Of a stretch of 35,618 bases of DNA, positions 4,305 through 35,618 are shown piece after piece. How positions within the stretch are numbered: the first letter of the stretch is position 1; each line of letters starts with the position of its first letter. The notes beneath the pieces are model-generated. The model saw nothing but the letters and a program-made list of their open reading frames with translations. It ran no database searches and was not told where the DNA came from. The stretch is from a virus: the IMG/VR virus record IMGVR_UViG_3300031825_000402, positions 1 through 35,618 of that record; one strand, 5' to 3'. The translations under genes and the position numbers were made by a program.

Positions 4305-4400
4305 CACCGTTGCCGGCTGCTGCCGGCCCGGTGTTTGTCCGCAGTTCTCGACGCGCTCGTGTCCTTCGGCACGAGCCGATCGCGTCGAAACAGCGGCAAA
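4305..4400 (-). repeat. Two-hairpin element, copy 1 (long upper stem)
   Basis: Read on the minus strand. Hairpin I: lower stem TTTG/CAAA and CCGC/GCGG with a bulged A, extended by TCGACGCG/CGCGTCGA and GCTCGTG/CACGAGC. Hairpin II: CACCG, one G, GCCGGC, loop AGCA, GCCGGC, AA, CGGTG. Its last 45 nt (4305-4349) match copy 6 (28835-28879) exactly on the opposite strand. It ends 33 nt before the ATG at 4271, in the sense orientation. Confidence 0.85.
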
Positions 4401-4453: not shown

Positions 4454-4938
4454 ATGAGCTTGGCGAGTTCGGCGTCGAGGGCGGCGCGCTGGGACTGGAG
4501 GGCTTCGCGTTTGCGCTGGGCCTCGCTCTTGCGGGCGGCGCGGAGCGCGGCTTTGTGCTCGGCGGGGAGCGCGGTGGCTTCGACGATGTCGAGCAGGGGC
4601 ACGAGGGCGGCGAGGCGGGCCTCGGCGGCGGTCTTCGCTTCGCTCAGGGCCGTGATCTCGGATTTGAGATTCGAGATTTCAGAGTCCTTGGCTTGGGTGG
4701 CGGCTTGGAGCGTGGCCTGTAGGCGCTGGATCTCGGCCTGGGCAGCGAGCTCGCGGGCTTCGAGGGCGTCGAGGATGGCGTTGCGCTTGGCGGGGTGCTG
4801 CACGATCGCGGTGGCGAGGTCGCCGGCGGATTGGCCGTCGAGCTTGATCTGCGTCAGGGAGTCGATCTGGACCTGACCAAGGCAGTTAAACGCGGAGAAC
4901 GCGAAGAGCGCGGAGAGAATGAGGAGGCGGGTTTTCAT
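4447..4938 (-). CDS. Exported coiled-coil protein (163 aa)
   Basis: Begins with a signal peptide (MKTRLLILSALFAFSAFNCL, cleavage perhaps near residue 21), followed by an Ala/Glu/Arg-rich coiled coil over residues ~45-160 with regular heptads. Two parts are written in dispersed repeats: the signal-peptide core (4889-4921, the AACGCGGAGAACGCG family) and an in-frame KDSEISNLKSEI segment (4656-4684, the GATTTGAGATT family). The stop codon touches another repeat at 4426-4446. It lies between the fibre and the 130-aa gene in the tail module. An exported coiled coil is unexpected for a virion protein; a spanin-like or fibre-accessory role is possible but unproven. Confidence 0.6.
   Translation of the reverse strand: MKTRLLILSALFAFSAFNCLGQVQIDSLTQIKLDGQSAGDLATAIVQHPAKRNAILDALEARELAAQAEIQRLQATLQAATQAKDSEISNLKSEITALSEAKTAAEARLAALVPLLDIVEATALPAEHKAALRAARKSEAQRKREALQSQRAALDAELAKLIP
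4656..4684. repeat. GATTTGAGATT-type repeat inside a gene
   Basis: The stretch GGATTTGAGATTCGAGATTT lies in frame inside the 163-aa coiled-coil gene. Related copies are at 15542-15571 and 30846-30868. The heptad-like translation (SEISNLKSEI) fits the coiled coil without breaking it. Confidence 0.65.
4889..4921. repeat. AACGCGGAGAACGCG-type repeat, copy 1
   Basis: Same family as 7970-8000, 9209-9236 and 10633-10662: units of GCGGAGAACGCGGAGAGCGC. On the minus strand this copy encodes the hydrophobic core of the signal peptide of the 163-aa protein. Confidence 0.75.
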
Positions 4939-4972
4939 GGGAGGATGGAGTTGAAAAATGCGTTGAGCGCTG

Positions 4973-4992
4973 CCCTTCGACAGGCTCAGGGT
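4973..4992. repeat. CCCTTCGACAGGCTCAGGG repeat, copy 1
   Basis: A 19-nt core identical to the one at 26480-26498 in the transposase gene. CCCT and AGGG at its two ends can pair. On the minus strand the TGA stop of the fibre gene (4986-4988) lies inside this repeat, which also encodes the last residues. Confidence 0.8.
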
Positions 4993-7876: not shown

Positions 7877-7931
7877 CACCGTTCCCCACTGCTGTGGGGC
7901 CGGTGTAAGTCCGGGCCGGTCGCCCGGCTTA
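7877..7931 (-). repeat. Two-hairpin element, copy 2
   Basis: Minus-strand sense. Hairpin I: TAAG/CTTA, bulged A, CCGGGC/GCCCGG. Hairpin II: CACCG, G, CCCCAC, AGCA, GTGGGG, AA, CGGTG. The upper stem of hairpin II differs at most positions from the other copies but remains perfectly paired. It ends 21 nt before the ATG at 7855. Confidence 0.8.
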
Positions 7932-7969
7932 TATTGGAGGTATTGTGACACAAGTTGTGATCAGTTTTT

Positions 7970-8000
7970 AAACGCGGAGGACGCAGAGGACGCGGAGAGA
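7970..8000. repeat. AACGCGGAGAACGCG-type repeat, copy 2
   Basis: Plus-strand text AACGCGGAGGACGCAGAGGA and its continuation lie between the tube stop (8007) and the two-hairpin element. No gene is seen in the 151-nt gap 7856-8006; it is filled by these two repeats. Confidence 0.8.
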
Positions 8001-9179: not shown

Positions 9180-9208
9180 GGGATGTGCGGGAGTTTAGTT
9201 TCGGAGTT

Positions 9209-9236
9209 TAAACGCGGAGAGCGCAGAGAGCGCGGA
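9209..9236. repeat. AACGCGGAGAACGCG-type repeat, copy 3
   Basis: AAACGCGGAGAGCGCAGAGA and continuation, immediately before the stop codon (9237-9239) of the 232-aa gene and within the 57-nt gap before the tube gene. It lies in the same place relative to flanking genes as copies 2 and 4. Confidence 0.8.
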
Positions 9237-9935
9237 TCAGGAAAATTCAGCTTCGGCGACGCTGCTGGGTTGGAGGCCGGATTTCTCGGCGGCGGCTTTC
9301 AGCGTGCCGGCGACGGCGGCGAAGGGCGCGGCGTAGAGCGTGGCCTCGGCATTCGTGCTGCAGGGATAGCTGCCGTCGGTCGTGTAATAGATCGCGGCGC
9401 CGGAAGTGGCGCAGGTGAGCGTGATCGAGGCGCCGGCGGCGCCTTCATCGGGATCGATGAGCGGAGTGCCGACGCGGACATCGGCATCTTCCTGGTCGAG
9501 GCGCTCGAAGGTGACGACGCGGGAGCGGCGGCTGGGATCGGACTGCGGCGCGGGGCTGGTGCTCTTCCAGACCAGCACACCGCGGCCGAGGGAGCGGCGA
9601 TGCAGGAGCTGGCGGATGCGGCGGGTGAGCTGGAACACGCTCTTTCCGGTGCCATCGGCGCCGTTGTTGAAGAGCTGAGTCTCGAAGACCTGCACGCCGA
9701 ACTGGATCCGGAGCTCCGGGCTGGGTGTATCGGGATTGGTGGGCGTCTCCTCGGGCTCGAGGACGAGCGCATAGGCGCCCATCTTGCCGGCCTTGGTGTT
9801 GAGCGTGCCGAGGCCTTTATCGATCTCGCTCTCGATGTCGCCCTTGTCTTCGAGATCGACGGTGACAGTCGCGAAGAGTGCATCGAGATCGAGCACGGTC
9901 TTGATGTCGGCCTGTTCCTGTTCGGTGCGGTCCAT
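9237..9935 (-). CDS. Tail terminator-like protein with C-terminal chitobiase-C-like domain (232 aa)
   Basis: The N-terminal ~150 residues lie where Mu-like and siphophages encode a tail terminator or gp37-type protein (after gpG, before the tube); the pattern with LRIQFGVQVFETQLFNNGADG and a helix QLTRRIRQLLHRR fits a small connector fold. Residues ~155-232 read as a CHB_HEX_C (chitobiase C-terminal, FN3-like) domain: TPLIDPDEGAAGASITLTC, then IYYTTDGSYP, then ATLYAAPFAAVAGTLKAAAEKSGLQPS. This domain usually binds surfaces or sugars and is found fused to many phage proteins. So the terminator-like core probably carries an outward-facing decoration. The start at 9935 is 2 nt after the gpG stop. 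Confidence 0.6.
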   Translation of the reverse strand: MDRTEQEQADIKTVLDLDALFATVTVDLEDKGDIESEIDKGLGTLNTKAGKMGAYALVLEPEETPTNPDTPSPELRIQFGVQVFETQLFNNGADGTGKSVFQLTRRIRQLLHRRSLGRGVLVWKSTSPAPQSDPSRRSRVVTFERLDQEDADVRVGTPLIDPDEGAAGASITLTCATSGAAIYYTTDGSYPCSTNAEATLYAAPFAAVAGTLKAAAEKSGLQPSSVAEAEFS

Positions 9936-10615: not shown

Positions 10616-10632
10616 CGCGGACAATCCTTTTT

Positions 10633-10662
10633 AAACGCGGAGGACGCGGAGGGCGCGGAGAA
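10633..10662. repeat. AACGCGGAGAACGCG-type repeat, copy 4
   Basis: AAACGCGGAGGACGCGGAGG and continuation, upstream of the gpG gene. Its edge (TTTTTAAACGCGG on the plus strand) abuts the Shine-Dalgarno of gpG, so the repeat forms part of the leader. Confidence 0.8.
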
Positions 10663-17138: not shown

Positions 17139-17193
17139 CACCGTTGCCGGCTGCTACCGGCCCGGTGCATGTCCTGACCGTCGTCAGGCATGC
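17139..17193 (-). repeat. Two-hairpin element, copy 3
   Basis: Minus-strand sense. Hairpin I: GCATG/CATGC, bulged A, CCTGAC/GTCAGG, loop GACG. Hairpin II: CACCG, G, GCCGGT, AGCA, GCCGGC, AA, CGGTG (one U-G pair). It lies in the 187-nt gap between TerL and portal and ends 28 nt before the portal ATG. Confidence 0.8.
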
Positions 17194-21727: not shown

Positions 21728-22266
21728 GTGGCGGCCTTCTGTGCTTTCGCGGCAAGGGCGATAGCACGCTGCTTGTAGGTCCACTGGTGAATCGTGTTGG
21801 GGCGGATGCCGATCTCGGCGCAGGCCTGCTTGAGCGACTTGGTGCCGGCCGCATCCTCGGCGACGATGCGCGCATAGAGCGCAGCCTTGGCGGGATCGAG
21901 CCGGGTGCGGCGTCCACCGCGCACTCCGTGGCCGACTGCGGCCGGTGACTGTTTAATTGCCGGAGCGTTTTTGCACACCGGATTCGTGATGCGGAAAATC
22001 TCGCGGCCGAGCGCGGCGCGCACGATGAAGCGGCCGGAGCCGGCATCGGTGCGGAGGAGGAGCAGGTAGTCGCCGCCCTTGATCACGGAGACGCTGGCGA
22101 CCTCGACCAAACACGTCGGCACGCACACCGTTGCGGCCTGCTGGCCGCCCGGTATCTGTCCCGGATTCTCGCCGTTCATAGCTGGCGAAATCCTGGCAGA
22201 CGCTTTGACGGCGGCGGGATTTTCTGCTTGGGTCTCGGTTGTCGAGAGATGGGAAGCGGCTGACAC
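21724..22266 (-). CDS. HTH DNA-binding protein opening the late operon (180 aa, start uncertain)
   Basis: The C-terminal third reads as a helix-turn-helix: AKAALYARIVAEDAAG, then SLKQACAEIGIRPNTIHQWTYKQRA, like HTH_23/terminase-small-type motifs. Residues ~60-100 form a beta-type domain (VIKGGDYLLLLRT, FIVRAALGREIF). As first gene of the late operon it may be a late activator or a packaging-related protein; it does not look like Mor/C. The N-terminal ~48 residues run through a two-hairpin element (22126-22200), so the real start may be a TTG or GTG after it (22110, or the GTG before IKGGDY). The annotated ATG at 22266 may be wrong. Confidence 0.55.
   Translation of the reverse strand: MSAASHLSTTETQAENPAAVKASARISPAMNGENPGQIPGGQQAATVCVPTCLVEVASVSVIKGGDYLLLLRTDAGSGRFIVRAALGREIFRITNPVCKNAPAIKQSPAAVGHGVRGGRRTRLDPAKAALYARIVAEDAAGTKSLKQACAEIGIRPNTIHQWTYKQRAIALAAKAQKAAT
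22126..22200 (-). repeat. Two-hairpin element, copy 4, in the 5' part of the HTH gene
   Basis: Minus-strand sense. Hairpin I: TCTG/CAGA, bulged A, CC/GG, GGATT/AATCC. Hairpin II: TACCG, G, GCGGCC, AGCA, GGCCGC, AA, CGGTG. If the HTH gene starts downstream, this copy is a 5' leader; if it starts at 22266, the copy is translated in frame (ENPGQIPGGQQAATV). Confidence 0.8.
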
Positions 22267-25165: not shown

Positions 25166-25431
25166 GGACCGCCCTCCAACTCCGCGGACTGATCCGCAAC
25201 ACCGAGGAGAAGCTGCGCCTCTACGAGCAGATGCGCGCGGACCTCACGCCCGAGCAGCTCGTCGAGCAGGGCAACTTCCACGCCCGGTGCGTGCTCGCCG
25301 GGCAGCAGCTCGCGATGTTCCGCGAGCAGCAGGCCGAACTAATTTCCCCGGCTGTGCCGGCAACTGCAAACGCTGAGGGCCTGGCAGGTTCCTTGGTCAC
25401 CATCGACGCGCAGCCGGGGACCCTTTCATGA
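25162..25431 (+). CDS. Small helical early protein (89 aa)
   Basis: ATGA overlap with the HTH gene. Helical and Gln/Glu/Leu-rich (LRLYEQMRADLTPEQLVEQGNFHARCVLAGQQLAMFREQQAEL), then a Pro/Ala tail. No family recognised. Coupled to the next gene by another ATGA. Confidence 0.6.
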   Translation: MRTALQLRGLIRNTEEKLRLYEQMRADLTPEQLVEQGNFHARCVLAGQQLAMFREQQAELISPAVPATANAEGLAGSLVTIDAQPGTLS

Positions 25432-26165
25432 CCATGGCCAACCCCGAAGAAAAATCCGCAGTCCTCGCCGTCTTCTCGACGTCGAAACTCTCCACCAGCC
25501 AGCGCGCGCGCCTGGTCGATGTCGCCAAGGCGCAGTTGACCACGCTGGTCAACCACCGCGCCGAGGCGCCGTATCGCGCGATCCTCACCGGCCTGACGCT
25601 GCACCGCATCAAGGCCGACTGCGCGCACGGGGAGTGGATGCCCCTCTACGAACAAATTTTGAAGAACGTCAAATTTTGCACGCCGAAGACCGCGCAGACC
25701 TATTGCTCGCAATGGATGCGCGCTGCCACGGAGTTCCTGGTGGAGGCGAAGATGGCGACGCCCGAGGCGGTGGCCATCGCGACCAGCGGCAACGAGCTGA
25801 GCCTGGAGACTACGGATGCGAATGAGCGGACGTTCGTCAGCAAGATGGAGAAGTTTATCGACGGCCGCTCGCTCGACGAGCTGCTCATCGACCTCGGCCT
25901 GCGCAATGGCGCGACGAAGAAGAAGCGGAAGCTGCTCGCCGCGGAGTCGGCCCCGGCCCCCACCGCGGCCGAGAAGGAGCAGACCGTGCAGGACCGTTTC
26001 AACGAGATCGAGGAGGCCCTGCAGCTGGCCCGCAAGGGCGCCACCGACAAGGGCACCTGGATGAGCTTCGACAAGAAACAGCACGACGCCCTCAAGGCGA
26101 TCTTCGAGCACGCCGCCGACCAGGTCGCGGCGATCCACCTGAAGACGCACGGCCGCAAAAAGTAA
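25428..26165 (+). CDS. DUF3102-like early protein (245 aa)
   Basis: The N-terminal half contains a segment like the DUF3102 family: GLTLHRIKADCAHGEWMPLYEQILKNVKFCTPKTAQTYCSQWMRAATEFLVEAK, with the characteristic HGEW and a C-terminal helix with a conserved (T)AQ. DUF3102 proteins occur in mobile elements and prophages with unknown function. The middle has a basic segment KKKRKLL, and the end a coiled helix (~185-240). It starts with ATGA overlap; a second ATG is 6 nt later. It lies before the transposase and its HTH partner and may be a DNA-binding accessory factor. Confidence 0.6.
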   Translation: MTMANPEEKSAVLAVFSTSKLSTSQRARLVDVAKAQLTTLVNHRAEAPYRAILTGLTLHRIKADCAHGEWMPLYEQILKNVKFCTPKTAQTYCSQWMRAATEFLVEAKMATPEAVAIATSGNELSLETTDANERTFVSKMEKFIDGRSLDELLIDLGLRNGATKKKRKLLAAESAPAPTAAEKEQTVQDRFNEIEEALQLARKGATDKGTWMSFDKKQHDALKAIFEHAADQVAAIHLKTHGRKK

Positions 26166-26172
26166 TTTCCCC

Positions 26173-26421
26173 ATGAGCACGCACCAACTACCCGCCGAGT
26201 TCATCACATTCTGGCAAAGCCTGGTCGAGAGTTTTCAGCGCCGGAGCACACGCGCCACGCATCGCGAGCTAGTCCGCCGCTGGTATGCCGGCGTCGCGAT
26301 ACCTGGTTACCCCAGGCACAGCCCAAACGCTTCGCTCCCCAGTGGCTGGTCCTACTGCAACCTGCTCCGCCATCTGCCCAGCAAGGCGCAGTTCATTCTC
26401 CGCCGCCACGGCCGCAACTAA
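26173..26421 (+). CDS. Free-standing HTH paralogue of the transposase N-terminal domain (82 aa)
   Basis: Residues ~11-72 align by eye with transposase residues ~130-206: EFITFWQSLVESFQRRSTRATHRELVRRWYAGVAIPGY against FTRRLCAMVLREHRSRKQAIERVRAAWRAGEIVPGY, then SGWSYCNLLRHLPSK against EGWSDTNLRNQMPSR. The leaders are also similar: AGTAATTTCCCC before this ATG, AACTAATTTCCCGCC before the transposase ATG. So the gene looks like a partial tandem duplication of the transposase start, keeping one DNA-binding domain. It might compete for transposase sites or regulate transposition. Function is inferred. Confidence 0.6.
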   Translation: MSTHQLPAEFITFWQSLVESFQRRSTRATHRELVRRWYAGVAIPGYPRHSPNASLPSGWSYCNLLRHLPSKAQFILRRHGRN

Positions 26422-26430
26422 TTTCCCGCC

Positions 26431-28797
26431 ATGCACGACTCGAACGCCCAGGTATCGGTCCCGCTCTCGCAGCTCAACTGCCCTTCGACAGGCTCAGGGC
26501 TTGCAGCAACTGAACAGTCAGGCTCGGGGCTGACTGCGCAGGAGGGCGAGTTTATCCCGTTCCAGCACCACGAGGAGTGGATCAACACGGGCACCGACGA
26601 GAAGCAGCGCATCAAGGAGCTGCTCCTGGCCATGCAGCTCATCAAGAGCGACGACCGCGGCGTCGTGCGCGCCTGCGAGGCCCTCGCCCTGATCAACCGC
26701 GGCCGCAAGGGCTGGAGCAAGCACAACCTCAAGACCCTCTACTACGCCTGGGTGCAGACCGAGGACTGGCGCCTGCTCCGCCGGAATTACCGCCACGACA
26801 GCAGCCTGCCGGCCGATTTCACGCGCCGCCTGTGCGCCATGGTCCTGCGCGAGCACCGCAGCCGCAAACAGGCCATCGAGCGCGTGCGCGCCGCCTGGCG
26901 CGCCGGCGAGATCGTGCCGGGCTACGGCACCTGGCGCCAGTGGTTTGCCGACCGCTACCCCGACCGCGAGATCCCGAAGCACTTCTGCGGCGACTACCCC
27001 GAGGGCTGGAGCGACACCAACCTGCGCAACCAGATGCCGAGCCGCCTGCAGCACGCCTACGCCACGGGCGGCTTCTTCGCCGCCCAGCGGGATCTGCCGC
27101 ACCTGATCCGTGACACCAGCAAGCTACGGCCGCTGGAGCTGGTGGTGTTCGACGATTTCAAGACCGACATCCGCGTCTACGCCTACAACCCCGTGCTCAA
27201 GAAGTGGGAGTGCGTGCCATGCGTGGGCCTGATCGCGATCGACGTGGCCACGCGCTGCATCATCGGCTTCGGCCTGCTGCCGCGCCTCACGCTGCCCAAG
27301 CGGATGAACCGGGCCGCGCTCGACGCCGCCCGCCCGCTCACCGACGCCGAGATCGCGGCCGACGAAAAGACCCGCTCGATCGCCATCAGCCGCGCCGACC
27401 TGCAGCTCGTGCTCAAGGGCATCTTTATGCGCATCGGCGTGCCGGCTGATTACATGATGACGCTCCTGGTCGAGAACGCGGCCGCCGCCGTGACCGACGG
27501 GCTCGAGACCGCCCTTGAAATCTATTTTCACGGCCAGGTGCGCGTGTGCCGCACCGCCATGCTGGAGCACCGCACCGCCGCCAACGGCTTCACCGAGCGC
27601 GGCGGCACGCCCTGGCAGAAGGGCTGGGTCGAGAGCGCCATCCGCTCGATGCACGACCGCGCCGGCAACCTGCCGGGCCAGACCGGCAGCCTGGAACAGG
27701 TGAACGCCCCCGGCGACCTCGTGGGCCGCACCGTCTACACGCTCGCCGCGCTCGACGGCATGACGCCCGAGCAGGCCGCCAAGATGGAGCTGCCCGTGCT
27801 CAGCGTGGAGCAGGCCACCGAGGCCTACGCGCGGATTTTTGGCATGATGGATCAGCGCGGCGAGTTCTGCCCGCACCGCATGCAGGGTTTCGAGACGATC
27901 AAGGTGTGGCGCACCGGCCCCGGCCAGGAATACCAGCCGATCAGCACGCTGCGGATCACCGCGGGCGACGATACCAGCACGCTCGACATAGTCGACCGCC
28001 AGCAGAGCCCGCGCGAGCGCTGGGCCTGCCTGATGGGCCAGGTGAAGCCGTTCGTGACCGTGGAGCCCTTCGTCATCGCGCTGCTGGCCTTCACGCCGAA
28101 GACCAAGATGAAATACCGCAACGGCAAGCTCACCTTCGAGCACGCCGGCACGGGCTACACCTACCTCGACCTGGAAGGCCACCTGAAGGACCTCAGCGAG
28201 GGCAGCAAGGTCATCGGCTATTTCGACGAGCAACAGCCCACGCACCTCTACGTGACCGACCTGCAGGGCCGGCCCCTCGGCGTGCTCGTGCGCCAGAACG
28301 ACAAGACCGACATCACCGACCCGGCCGCCATCGGCGCCGCGCAGGAGGTGATGCGCCGCTTCTTCTACGGCCAGGTGGCGAACCCGGTGACCGAGCTGCT
28401 CGCGGACGACCGCGCGAAGAGCCTCGCCGATGCCGCGCACAACGACGCCGAGCGCGCCCGCCTCGGGCTCGCTCCCATCCCTTCCTCGGCGCGCCCCGGC
28501 GCGTCTCGCGCAATCAACGGACCGGCCCCGGCCGGCTCACCTAATGGGGATAACGCGGCCTCTGCCGCCCAACCAGCGCCGAGGAAAACTTTGACCGACA
28601 CCCTGGCCCGCGACGCCTTTGCCGCGCCGGCCGATCGCTTCGCCCAGGCGAAGGACACCGCCGCCGCCATCGCCCAGGCCACGGTGCAGCACAATGCACA
28701 GGCCGCCGTCGAGCGCGCCACCGAGAGCGACAAGGCCGCCGCCGCCCGCCTCGTCGAGAAATACGCCCAGGAGGAGGACAACTCCAAATACATCTGA
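26431..28797 (+). CDS. A: Transposase A, MuA-like integrase-fold (788 aa)
   Basis: Catalyses strand transfer in phage replication and integration. Residues ~45-210 contain DNA-binding helices and HTH domains; ~230-410 is the integrase (rve) core with first Asp at 241/242 (LELVVFDDFKTDI), a beta strand IAIDVATRCIIGFG, a second position LLVENAAAAV (Glu348 where Asp is expected) and the third, Glu401 (GWVESAIRS). A beta-barrel-like region (~480-640, KVWRTGPGQEYQPI through LTFEHAGTGYTYLDLEG) follows, then an Ala/Pro/Asp-rich C-terminus that would contact the ATPase. The N-terminus includes a dispersed repeat (26480-26498). Length (788) exceeds MuA (663). B follows after a two-hairpin element. Confidence 0.85.
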   Translation: MHDSNAQVSVPLSQLNCPSTGSGLAATEQSGSGLTAQEGEFIPFQHHEEWINTGTDEKQRIKELLLAMQLIKSDDRGVVRACEALALINRGRKGWSKHNLKTLYYAWVQTEDWRLLRRNYRHDSSLPADFTRRLCAMVLREHRSRKQAIERVRAAWRAGEIVPGYGTWRQWFADRYPDREIPKHFCGDYPEGWSDTNLRNQMPSRLQHAYATGGFFAAQRDLPHLIRDTSKLRPLELVVFDDFKTDIRVYAYNPVLKKWECVPCVGLIAIDVATRCIIGFGLLPRLTLPKRMNRAALDAARPLTDAEIAADEKTRSIAISRADLQLVLKGIFMRIGVPADYMMTLLVENAAAAVTDGLETALEIYFHGQVRVCRTAMLEHRTAANGFTERGGTPWQKGWVESAIRSMHDRAGNLPGQTGSLEQVNAPGDLVGRTVYTLAALDGMTPEQAAKMELPVLSVEQATEAYARIFGMMDQRGEFCPHRMQGFETIKVWRTGPGQEYQPISTLRITAGDDTSTLDIVDRQQSPRERWACLMGQVKPFVTVEPFVIALLAFTPKTKMKYRNGKLTFEHAGTGYTYLDLEGHLKDLSEGSKVIGYFDEQQPTHLYVTDLQGRPLGVLVRQNDKTDITDPAAIGAAQEVMRRFFYGQVANPVTELLADDRAKSLADAAHNDAERARLGLAPIPSSARPGASRAINGPAPAGSPNGDNAASAAQPAPRKTLTDTLARDAFAAPADRFAQAKDTAAAIAQATVQHNAQAAVERATESDKAAAARLVEKYAQEEDNSKYI
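26480..26498. repeat. CCCTTCGACAGGCTCAGGG repeat, copy 2, inside the transposase gene
   Basis: The 19-nt core is identical to 4973-4991. It translates in frame as CPSTGSG, followed by a degenerate second unit (CAGGCTCGGGG) near 26519-26529. The extra N-terminal ~35 residues of the transposase are therefore probably repeat-derived. Confidence 0.8.
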
Positions 28798-28806
28798 TCC
28801 CAACCC

Positions 28807-28879
28807 TTTGCCGCTGTTTCGCGGGGCACCTCGCGAGAACTGCGGACAAACACCGGGCCGGCAGCAGCCGGCAACGGTG
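28807..28879 (+). repeat. Two-hairpin element, copy 6, before ATPase B
   Basis: Plus-strand sense. Hairpin I: TTTG/CAAA, bulged A, CCGC/GCGG, with an upper stem CGCGGG/CTCGCG. Hairpin II: CACCG, G, GCCGGC, AGCA, GCCGGC, AA, CGGTG. Its last 45 nt are identical to copy 1. It lies 21 nt before the B start codon, in the gap between A and B. Confidence 0.85.
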
Positions 28880-28900
28880 CAACCACCCCCCGATAAAAAC

Positions 28901-29980
28901 ATGACATCACCCACCGACAGCATCGAACCCATCCTCGACGACACGCGCCGCGTGCTTAACGGCCGCATCCCGGCCAGCCTCGTCACCGCCTGCACCGAGC
29001 CGCTGCAGGCCGACGAGCGCGACGCCATCCGCTGGTTCCACGCCCATTACTGGGACGAGGGTTTTTCGCTCAGTGAGAGCGGCGAACTCATCGGCTACGA
29101 CGGCACTACCATGTCGCGCCTGTTCCGCGGCCAGTATGAGGGCCGGCGCAGCGAGGTGGTGGCCAAGATCGAAGCCTACCGTCAGGAGCTGGAGGGCAAA
29201 CGCCGCTCCGTGAAGATGCCATGGCAGCCGACTGCGCTCGGCACTGAGATCAAGGAGAACTGCGACGCGGCCCGCAAATATCAGGCTATCATCTGCGGTT
29301 TCGGCGAGAGCCAGGTGGGCAAGACCGAGAACCTCCGGCACATCGAGCGCGAGGACAAGGAGGGCACTACGCTACTCCTCGAGATCGCGCCGGGCGCGAC
29401 CGAGAGCGAATTCCTGCCGCTGGTGTGCAGCCGCCTCAGCCTCAGCTCACGCTCGCGCGTGGGCGAGTTGTGGCTGAAGCTTGCGAGCCATCTCGCCGTG
29501 CGGGATATGCTTTTGATCATCGACGAGGGTGCCCGCGCCGGCGGCCTGCATGAGTATGGCGGGGGCAATTTCCGCCTGCTGGAGCGCCTGCGCTGGCTCT
29601 ACGACCGCTGCCAGTTCGGCCTCTTTTTTTGCGGCACCAACACGACGCGGGACCAGATGCAGGCCAAGGAGCACGAGAAATACCTCAACCAGTGGAACCG
29701 CCGCGTGCTGCGCAAGGTGCAGTTCCCCGACCTGCCGAGCCGGGCGGATCTCAACGTGTTCAGCCGCTACTACGACCTGCCGGCGGCCACGGGCGACGCG
29801 CGCACGCTGGAGAAGACCATCGTCTCCACCATGGGCCTCGGCCAGTGGCTGAAGACGCTCAGCATGGGCCAGGTGCGCGCCGCCAAAGAGCGGATGACCT
29901 GGGAACACGTGCTCCGCGCGAACGCCTGGATGAAACGCGACGAGAATCCCGAGCGCCGCAAATCCAACACGGAGGCCTGA
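28901..29980 (+). CDS. B: Transposition ATPase B, MuB-like AAA+ (359 aa)
   Basis: Helps the transposase choose target DNA. Walker A is GESQVGKT (around residue 133), Walker B MLLIIDEGA with the D/E pair (around 205-211), and sensor-like FFCGTNTT follows at ~240. The N-terminal ~100 residues include a helix-turn-helix (SLSESGELIGYDGTTMSRLFRGQYEG), as in MuB. ATP-dependent DNA binding is expected. The reading frame extends upstream, but the earlier part is another frame of the transposase and the repeat element, so I start at 28901. No Shine-Dalgarno is visible in the 21 nt after the repeat, so the repeat may matter for translation. Confidence 0.85.
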   Translation: MTSPTDSIEPILDDTRRVLNGRIPASLVTACTEPLQADERDAIRWFHAHYWDEGFSLSESGELIGYDGTTMSRLFRGQYEGRRSEVVAKIEAYRQELEGKRRSVKMPWQPTALGTEIKENCDAARKYQAIICGFGESQVGKTENLRHIEREDKEGTTLLLEIAPGATESEFLPLVCSRLSLSSRSRVGELWLKLASHLAVRDMLLIIDEGARAGGLHEYGGGNFRLLERLRWLYDRCQFGLFFCGTNTTRDQMQAKEHEKYLNQWNRRVLRKVQFPDLPSRADLNVFSRYYDLPAATGDARTLEKTIVSTMGLGQWLKTLSMGQVRAAKERMTWEHVLRANAWMKRDENPERRKSNTEA

Positions 29981-35082: not shown

Positions 35083-35618
35083 GCCCCGCCCAGACAGCTC
35101 TCTATTTCCGCGAGTGGGGCAAGGTCCGCGCCCACTACATCGCCAAGGGCATCGACCCGAAGCAGGCGGAGAACAAGCGGCACGAGCTGCACAAGAAGGC
35201 CCTCGGCACCGACAAGTCCTCGAAAAGCTTCACGAACGCCGACCTCGACCGGGTCCTGGCCGCGTTCTACGCCATCACGCGCCCAGCCGACCTCACCGCC
35301 CAGCTCCGCCAGATCGACCAGCCCGAGCTGCGCCGGCAGGAGTGCTGGATCCGCATCCTCGACATCCTCATCGAGCTGCGCGTCGGCAATAAATACGCCT
35401 ACGACGAGGACGATCTGCTCGCTCGCCGCGTGGCCTACGTCGACGGCCTCGTCGGCAAGGTGATCAAGGGCCAGCAGCGCTGGGACCAGCTCGACGACAA
35501 GCAGGCCCGCGTCCTCCTCGGCATCATGCAGCGCCGGCTGTTGGCCGTGCGCCAGGCCGCCGCGAAGCACGAGGCCCCGGCCGCCGCGCACAAAATGCCG
35601 GACAACTTCCCCTGGTGA
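35079..35618 (+). CDS. gemA: GemA-like regulatory protein, DUF1018 (179 aa)
   Basis: GemA of Mu affects host gene expression and DNA supercoiling. The family pattern is present: AKGIDPKQAENKRHELHKKALGTDKSSKSFTNADLDRVLAAFYAIT, then QLRQIDQPELRRQECWIRILDILIELRVGNKYA and LLGIMQRRLLAVRQ at the end. Length is normal. It ends at the last base of the window, so Mor or other genes and the right end of the phage may lie just outside. Confidence 0.85.
   Translation: MSPAQTALYFREWGKVRAHYIAKGIDPKQAENKRHELHKKALGTDKSSKSFTNADLDRVLAAFYAITRPADLTAQLRQIDQPELRRQECWIRILDILIELRVGNKYAYDEDDLLARRVAYVDGLVGKVIKGQQRWDQLDDKQARVLLGIMQRRLLAVRQAAAKHEAPAAAHKMPDNFPW

Follow-up and report, generated by a model that had tools for sequence, protein, structure and literature searches.

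A free-standing DNA-binding subdomain of the MuA type, Iγ, appears to be encoded by a separate small gene next to the transposase gene of a Mu-like phage. The window analysed in this study is the whole virus record of that phage, 35,618 bases in length (IMG/VR record IMGVR_UViG_3300031825_000402). It holds an open reading frame (ORF) of 82 aa with an ATG start and a TAA stop, and the transposase gene lies directly downstream (Table 1). Judged by sequence comparison, the small protein comes from a transposase clade different from that of the resident transposase and is not a copy of the latter. The interpretation that we favor, though only somewhat, is that the small ORF is the relic of a foreign short-form transposase left behind when transposase modules were exchanged; the fragment is probably still translated and folded and would have a weak function or none. 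The short-form clade of L057, L034/G122, L058, and L060 would best explain the kind of donor.

Table 1. Coordinates of the features discussed, in the window unless a locus is named
Feature	Position	Strand	Remark
245-aa early gene	25428..26165	+	Unassigned function; upstream neighbor of the small ORF
Left junction repeat CACGGCCGCAAAAAGTAATTTCCC	26148..26171	+	End of the 245-aa gene and spacer
Small ORF, 82 aa	26173..26421	+	Free-standing short-form MuA-type Iγ subdomain, probably of foreign origin
Right junction repeat CACGGCCGCAACTAATTTCCC	26407..26427	+	End of the small ORF and spacer
MuA-like transposase, 788 aa	26431..28797	+	Resident, long form; phrog_310
Iγ region of the resident transposase	26782..27078	+	Long form with GTWRQWF segment; resembles the small ORF
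MuB-like ATPase	28901..29980	+	phrog_296; nearest relatives differ from those of the transposase
Palindromic repeat CACCGTTGCCGGCTGCTGCCGGCCCGGTG...	4305-4350, 7877-7912, 17139-17174, 22126-22161, 28834-28880		One copy between the transposase and MuB
242-aa Iβγ protein of other prophages	L046:7900-8628, L047:4138-4866, L048:7963-8691	+	Strand opposite to the transposase

The start (position 1) and the end (position 35618) of the record coincide exactly with ORF ends, as would result from cutting a provirus at gene borders, and the record probably lacks the phage ends.

Residues 6-73 of the small protein were aligned with residues 126-207 of the resident transposase at 30% identity (BLASTP, E = 2e-6), close to the segment of about residues 130-206 named in an earlier sequence-only reading of this DNA. 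When the small protein was used as a single phmmer query, all significant matches were transposases, dozens of different ones and nothing else; hence, the similarity is not due to chance. The best matches were the short-form transposases L057 (E = 7.5e-17) and L034 (E = 2.9e-16). Full transposases of other phages were matched at E values of ~1e-16 to 1e-11, whereas the resident transposase was matched at E = 0.005. The homology to the Iγ region of MuA-like transposases was also recovered by a profile search. The small protein comprises Iγ only and has no DDE catalytic domain. Its model (pLDDT 85) contains four predicted helices (residues 8-20, 26-39, 61-65, and 71-80). No PDB structure matching this model was found with Foldseek or VIA, and the sole match of the Iγ profile among PDB sequences, citrate synthase (E = 1.1), was taken as chance.

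The identity of the domain was assessed from the resident transposase. The profile of the transposase group matches MuA in the Mu transpososome (PDB 4fcy, E = 7e-7), with matching stretches in the Iβ, catalytic, and C-terminal parts. The Iβγ model of the resident transposase (pLDDT 94) had 4fcy as its top PDB match (Foldseek probability 0.66, but E = 0.41), followed by TnsB. Superposition of model residues 4-176 on residues 89-242 of MuA gave a VIA Z score of 7.7 and an rmsd of 12.3 over 132 residues, which is weak alone. The large rmsd would fit two domains that are oriented differently relative to each other. Jointly, the structural match and the sequence profile support the presence of a MuA-type Iβγ region in the resident transposase; the part common to it and the small protein is the second one, Iγ. 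In MuA of bacteriophage Mu, Iγ is the second of two end-binding subdomains, located between Iβ and the catalytic domain, and the transposases of the window's group resemble MuA in both profile and fold. In contrast to Iγ of MuA, the small protein is Iγ standing by itself; its 82 aa include nothing of the Iβ, catalytic, or C-terminal regions. Single-sequence searches of IMG/VR, phage, and plasmid records returned no close relative of either the small protein or the transposase, a first search of genome contigs with MuB gave no matches, and literature searches yielded nothing on such a protein.

The transposases of this group fall into two forms. The long forms, which include the resident transposase, L002 (50% identity), L004, and L018/L068, carry a near-invariant PGYGTWRxWF segment, predicted to be an extra helix in the resident protein. 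This segment is absent from the short forms (L034 in G122, L057, L038/L060, L058, and L045/L067) and from the small protein. The closest short-form relatives (among L057, L034/G122, L058, and L060) share 44-45% identity with the small protein over the domain; unlike it, they are full transposases of about 670-760 aa. In an Iγ tree calculated with the insert columns left out, the small protein was rejected as sister to the resident transposase (AU p = 0.015) and as a member of the resident transposase's clade (AU p = 0.028); this tree had 75 columns only and many open forks. In a placement against a backbone tree of 31 full-length transposases, the small protein scored best at positions within the short-form clade; next to the resident transposase, it scored 40.9 log units worse (AU p = 0.0017).

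These placements contradict the proposal, made in the sequence-only reading, that the small gene arose by tandem partial duplication of the transposase gene. The adjacency of the two genes, their identity, and the doubled start context are what such a duplication would produce, but transposases of other phages are closer to the small protein than the resident one, the long-form segment is missing, and the doubled context derives from the end of the 245-aa gene and not from the transposase. We consider a duplication very unlikely. Thus, the notion of a DNA-binding domain in a gene of its own stood, whereas that of a copy of the adjacent transposase did not.

A sequence common to the two start contexts had been noticed in the sequence-only reading. 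The 30-nt contexts before the small gene and the transposase gene are near-copies (CACGGCCGCAA..TAATTTCCC); 0 of 20,000 dinucleotide shuffles gave such a likeness, and of the 136 pairings of gene starts across the window, this one ranks top. The repeat extends upstream into the coding ends (CACGGCCGC..TAATTTCCC). What is repeated is the 3'-terminal part of the upstream reading frame together with the spacer (HGRKK-stop versus HGRN-stop), and not transposase sequence. The word TAATTTCCC, located at 26163-26171 and 26419-26427 with a third copy at 25340, is within chance when taken alone, with 29 of 100 shuffles giving as many matches at one mismatch. It was dropped as a candidate special site because the word itself is non-significant and relatives have similar pyrimidine-rich leaders. 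Pyrimidine-rich spacers without a Shine-Dalgarno sequence, resembling TAATTTCCCGCC of the window, were observed upstream of the transposase starts in L005, L058, L061, L068, L071, and L073.

A clear homolog of the 245-aa protein (E below 1e-13) was present in eight relatives. In all eight, at most 21 nt separate its gene from the transposase gene, or the two overlap by 4 nt; therefore, the small ORF is most simply explained by a later insertion on the lineage leading to the window. The early region is mosaic. In the MuB tree, the window's protein has L071 as its sister, and a pairing with L002 (L002:8430-9533) is rejected (AU p about 1e-110), whereas the transposase has its nearest relative in L002. 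Nearest relatives of MuB and the transposase differ across the phage group as well, which indicates that the two have been exchanged independently. Because L071 is a long-form phage, the MuB tree gives no indication of a short-form donor, and MuB was dropped as direct proof of one. A tblastn search of the window for other remains of a short-form transposase returned the small ORF and the resident transposase, and everything else had an E value above 0.5. Bacteroides hankyphages are generally conserved and differ mainly in the MuA-like transposase, the tail fiber, and the reverse transcriptase of the diversity-generating retroelement (DGR), which offers a precedent for transposase exchange (PMC12135933).

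Clade membership, late insertion, the mosaic early region, the junction repeat, and the intact ORF emerge from the data, and a transposase swap could connect them as follows. The starting phage would have carried the 245-aa gene followed by a short-form transposase gene. Recombination with a long-form phage may have occurred at the microhomology CACGGCCGC, which occurs both at the 3' terminus of the 245-aa gene and in the HGR codons of the short form. A deletion would then have taken away the remaining old transposase, leaving an Iγ fragment with the 245-aa gene on one side and today's long-form transposase on the other; the order of these steps is conjectural. A doubled 245-aa gene end and leader with a fragment of the old transposase in between would be the expected trace of a recombination joint at CACGGCCGC. 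The product would be small and basic and would bind DNA weakly if at all; it would be mainly a relic, and its frame may have been kept open by its place in a translational relay to the transposase.

The coding state of the small ORF bears on this interpretation in both directions. Its codon usage falls below that of all 137 windows taken from five neighboring genes, with the caveat that this measure differs a great deal among short coding sequences. The comparison covered about 60 transposase loci on viral contigs and in genomes belonging to the same phylum as L011 (a Verrucomicrobiota genome), and the small ORF is the sole stand-alone short-form Iγ ORF among them; further short Iγ matches were either truncations at contig ends (L054, L055, L100, and L101) or weak. 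The distant codon usage and the lone occurrence count for a relic. The intact ORF, its conserved residues, and its confident fold count against one, but need not do so if the relic is recent. The long-form sister of MuB and the shortness and open forks of the Iγ tree also count against it. The ORF has a coding-like periodicity (GC1/2/3 = 0.60/0.54/0.78) and keeps 19 of 22 conserved positions (rank 10 of 40). An origin as a chance ORF or an assembly artefact is scarcely credible: a single metagenomic record holds the ORF, but homology over the whole domain, the conserved residues, and the coding periodicity speak against it.

Neither the small gene nor the transposase gene is preceded by a Shine-Dalgarno sequence, and the stop-to-start gaps are 7 and 9 nt. 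Because both starts lack this signal and lie 7-9 nt past a stop, translational coupling is likely, and the gene arrangement indicates that the small ORF is probably translated in this stop-start manner. Coupling alone may explain why the ORF has stayed open. The small ORF might even be a mere translated spacer that passes ribosomes from the 245-aa gene to the transposase gene, with an irrelevant amino acid sequence. The two starts fit this idea, as does the finding that, in relatives, the upstream gene directly adjoins the start of the transposase gene or overlaps it. The domain's conserved residues have been retained, which makes it an unlikely explanation, although a recent origin would also account for the retention.

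A functional alternative is that the foreign Iγ was captured and selected as a free DNA-binding protein. Such a protein might act as a competitor or modulator, at the ends of the phage or at internal sites, or it might regulate the early operon. The ORF is intact and periodic, its start and end are close to the domain limits, and its position gives translation coupled to the transposase. The encoded protein is strongly basic (pI 11.6), well folded in the model, and conserved at most key positions. However, it was found in one record only, without close relatives, and has no Iβ partner; in MuA, it is the Iβ partner of Iγ that contacts the end sites. A match between a domain of a foreign clade and the phage's own ends is also doubtful. 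We regard this alternative as less likely than a relic but as a serious one. In particular, the role put forward in the sequence-only reading, competition at the phage's own ends, seems less likely because the domain derives from a transposase of another clade, presumably with a different end specificity.

A protein found in other prophages lends this alternative some support. The Mu-like prophages of G081, G048, and G241 encode a 242-aa protein with Iβ and Iγ but no catalytic domain, and its C-terminal segment looks coiled coil-like by eye. In G081 (locus L046), its gene is preceded by an HTH repressor-like gene. It matches the transposases of G406, G030, and G066 at 39-42% and those of its own phages at 35-36%. 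The three genomes count as one case because the protein is nearly identical across them. Like the small protein, it is a transposase DNA-binding region without a catalytic domain and is closer to foreign transposases. Unlike the small protein, it contains both Iβ and Iγ, is of the long form, lies on the opposite strand beside an HTH gene, and has a separate origin. By analogy, it suggests that such fragments can persist.

Known transposase-derived inhibitors offer a further comparison. InsA of IS1 and Inh of Tn5 are derived from the element's own transposase and have been demonstrated to act. The small protein resembles them as a transposase part present as a separate protein beside the transposase, but differs in its foreign origin and in that an inhibitory role is only putative. 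If its binding is specific, its expected targets are the ends of short-form phages and not those of its own phage, because the domain comes from the short-form clade. The end-binding domain of a rival clade might then have been retained in free form, in which it would sit on the ends of the rival and hamper superinfecting or co-resident transposable phages; we consider this quite unlikely. A working domain would be a natural example of a MuA-type end-binding subdomain that acts without the remaining transposase. If, as we favor, it is a relic, it marks the site of a transposase swap within a transposable phage and illustrates how translated domain fragments, possible seeds of new regulators, can be left by module exchange.

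Other repeats were observed in the window. A palindromic repeat (CACCGTTGCCGGCTGCTGCCGGCCCGGTG...) of 36-46 nt is dispersed in five copies on both strands (Table 1). A 34-nt repeat of the TTTTTAAACGCGGAGGACGCAGAGGACGCGGAGA kind occurs four times, at 4883-4916, 7965-7998, 9205-9238, and 10628-10661. A 22-nt repeat, CTGCCCTTCGACAGGCTCAGGG, is present in identical copies at 4970-4991 and 26478-26499, and the latter copy lies within an N-terminal stretch of the transposase that is absent from L002.
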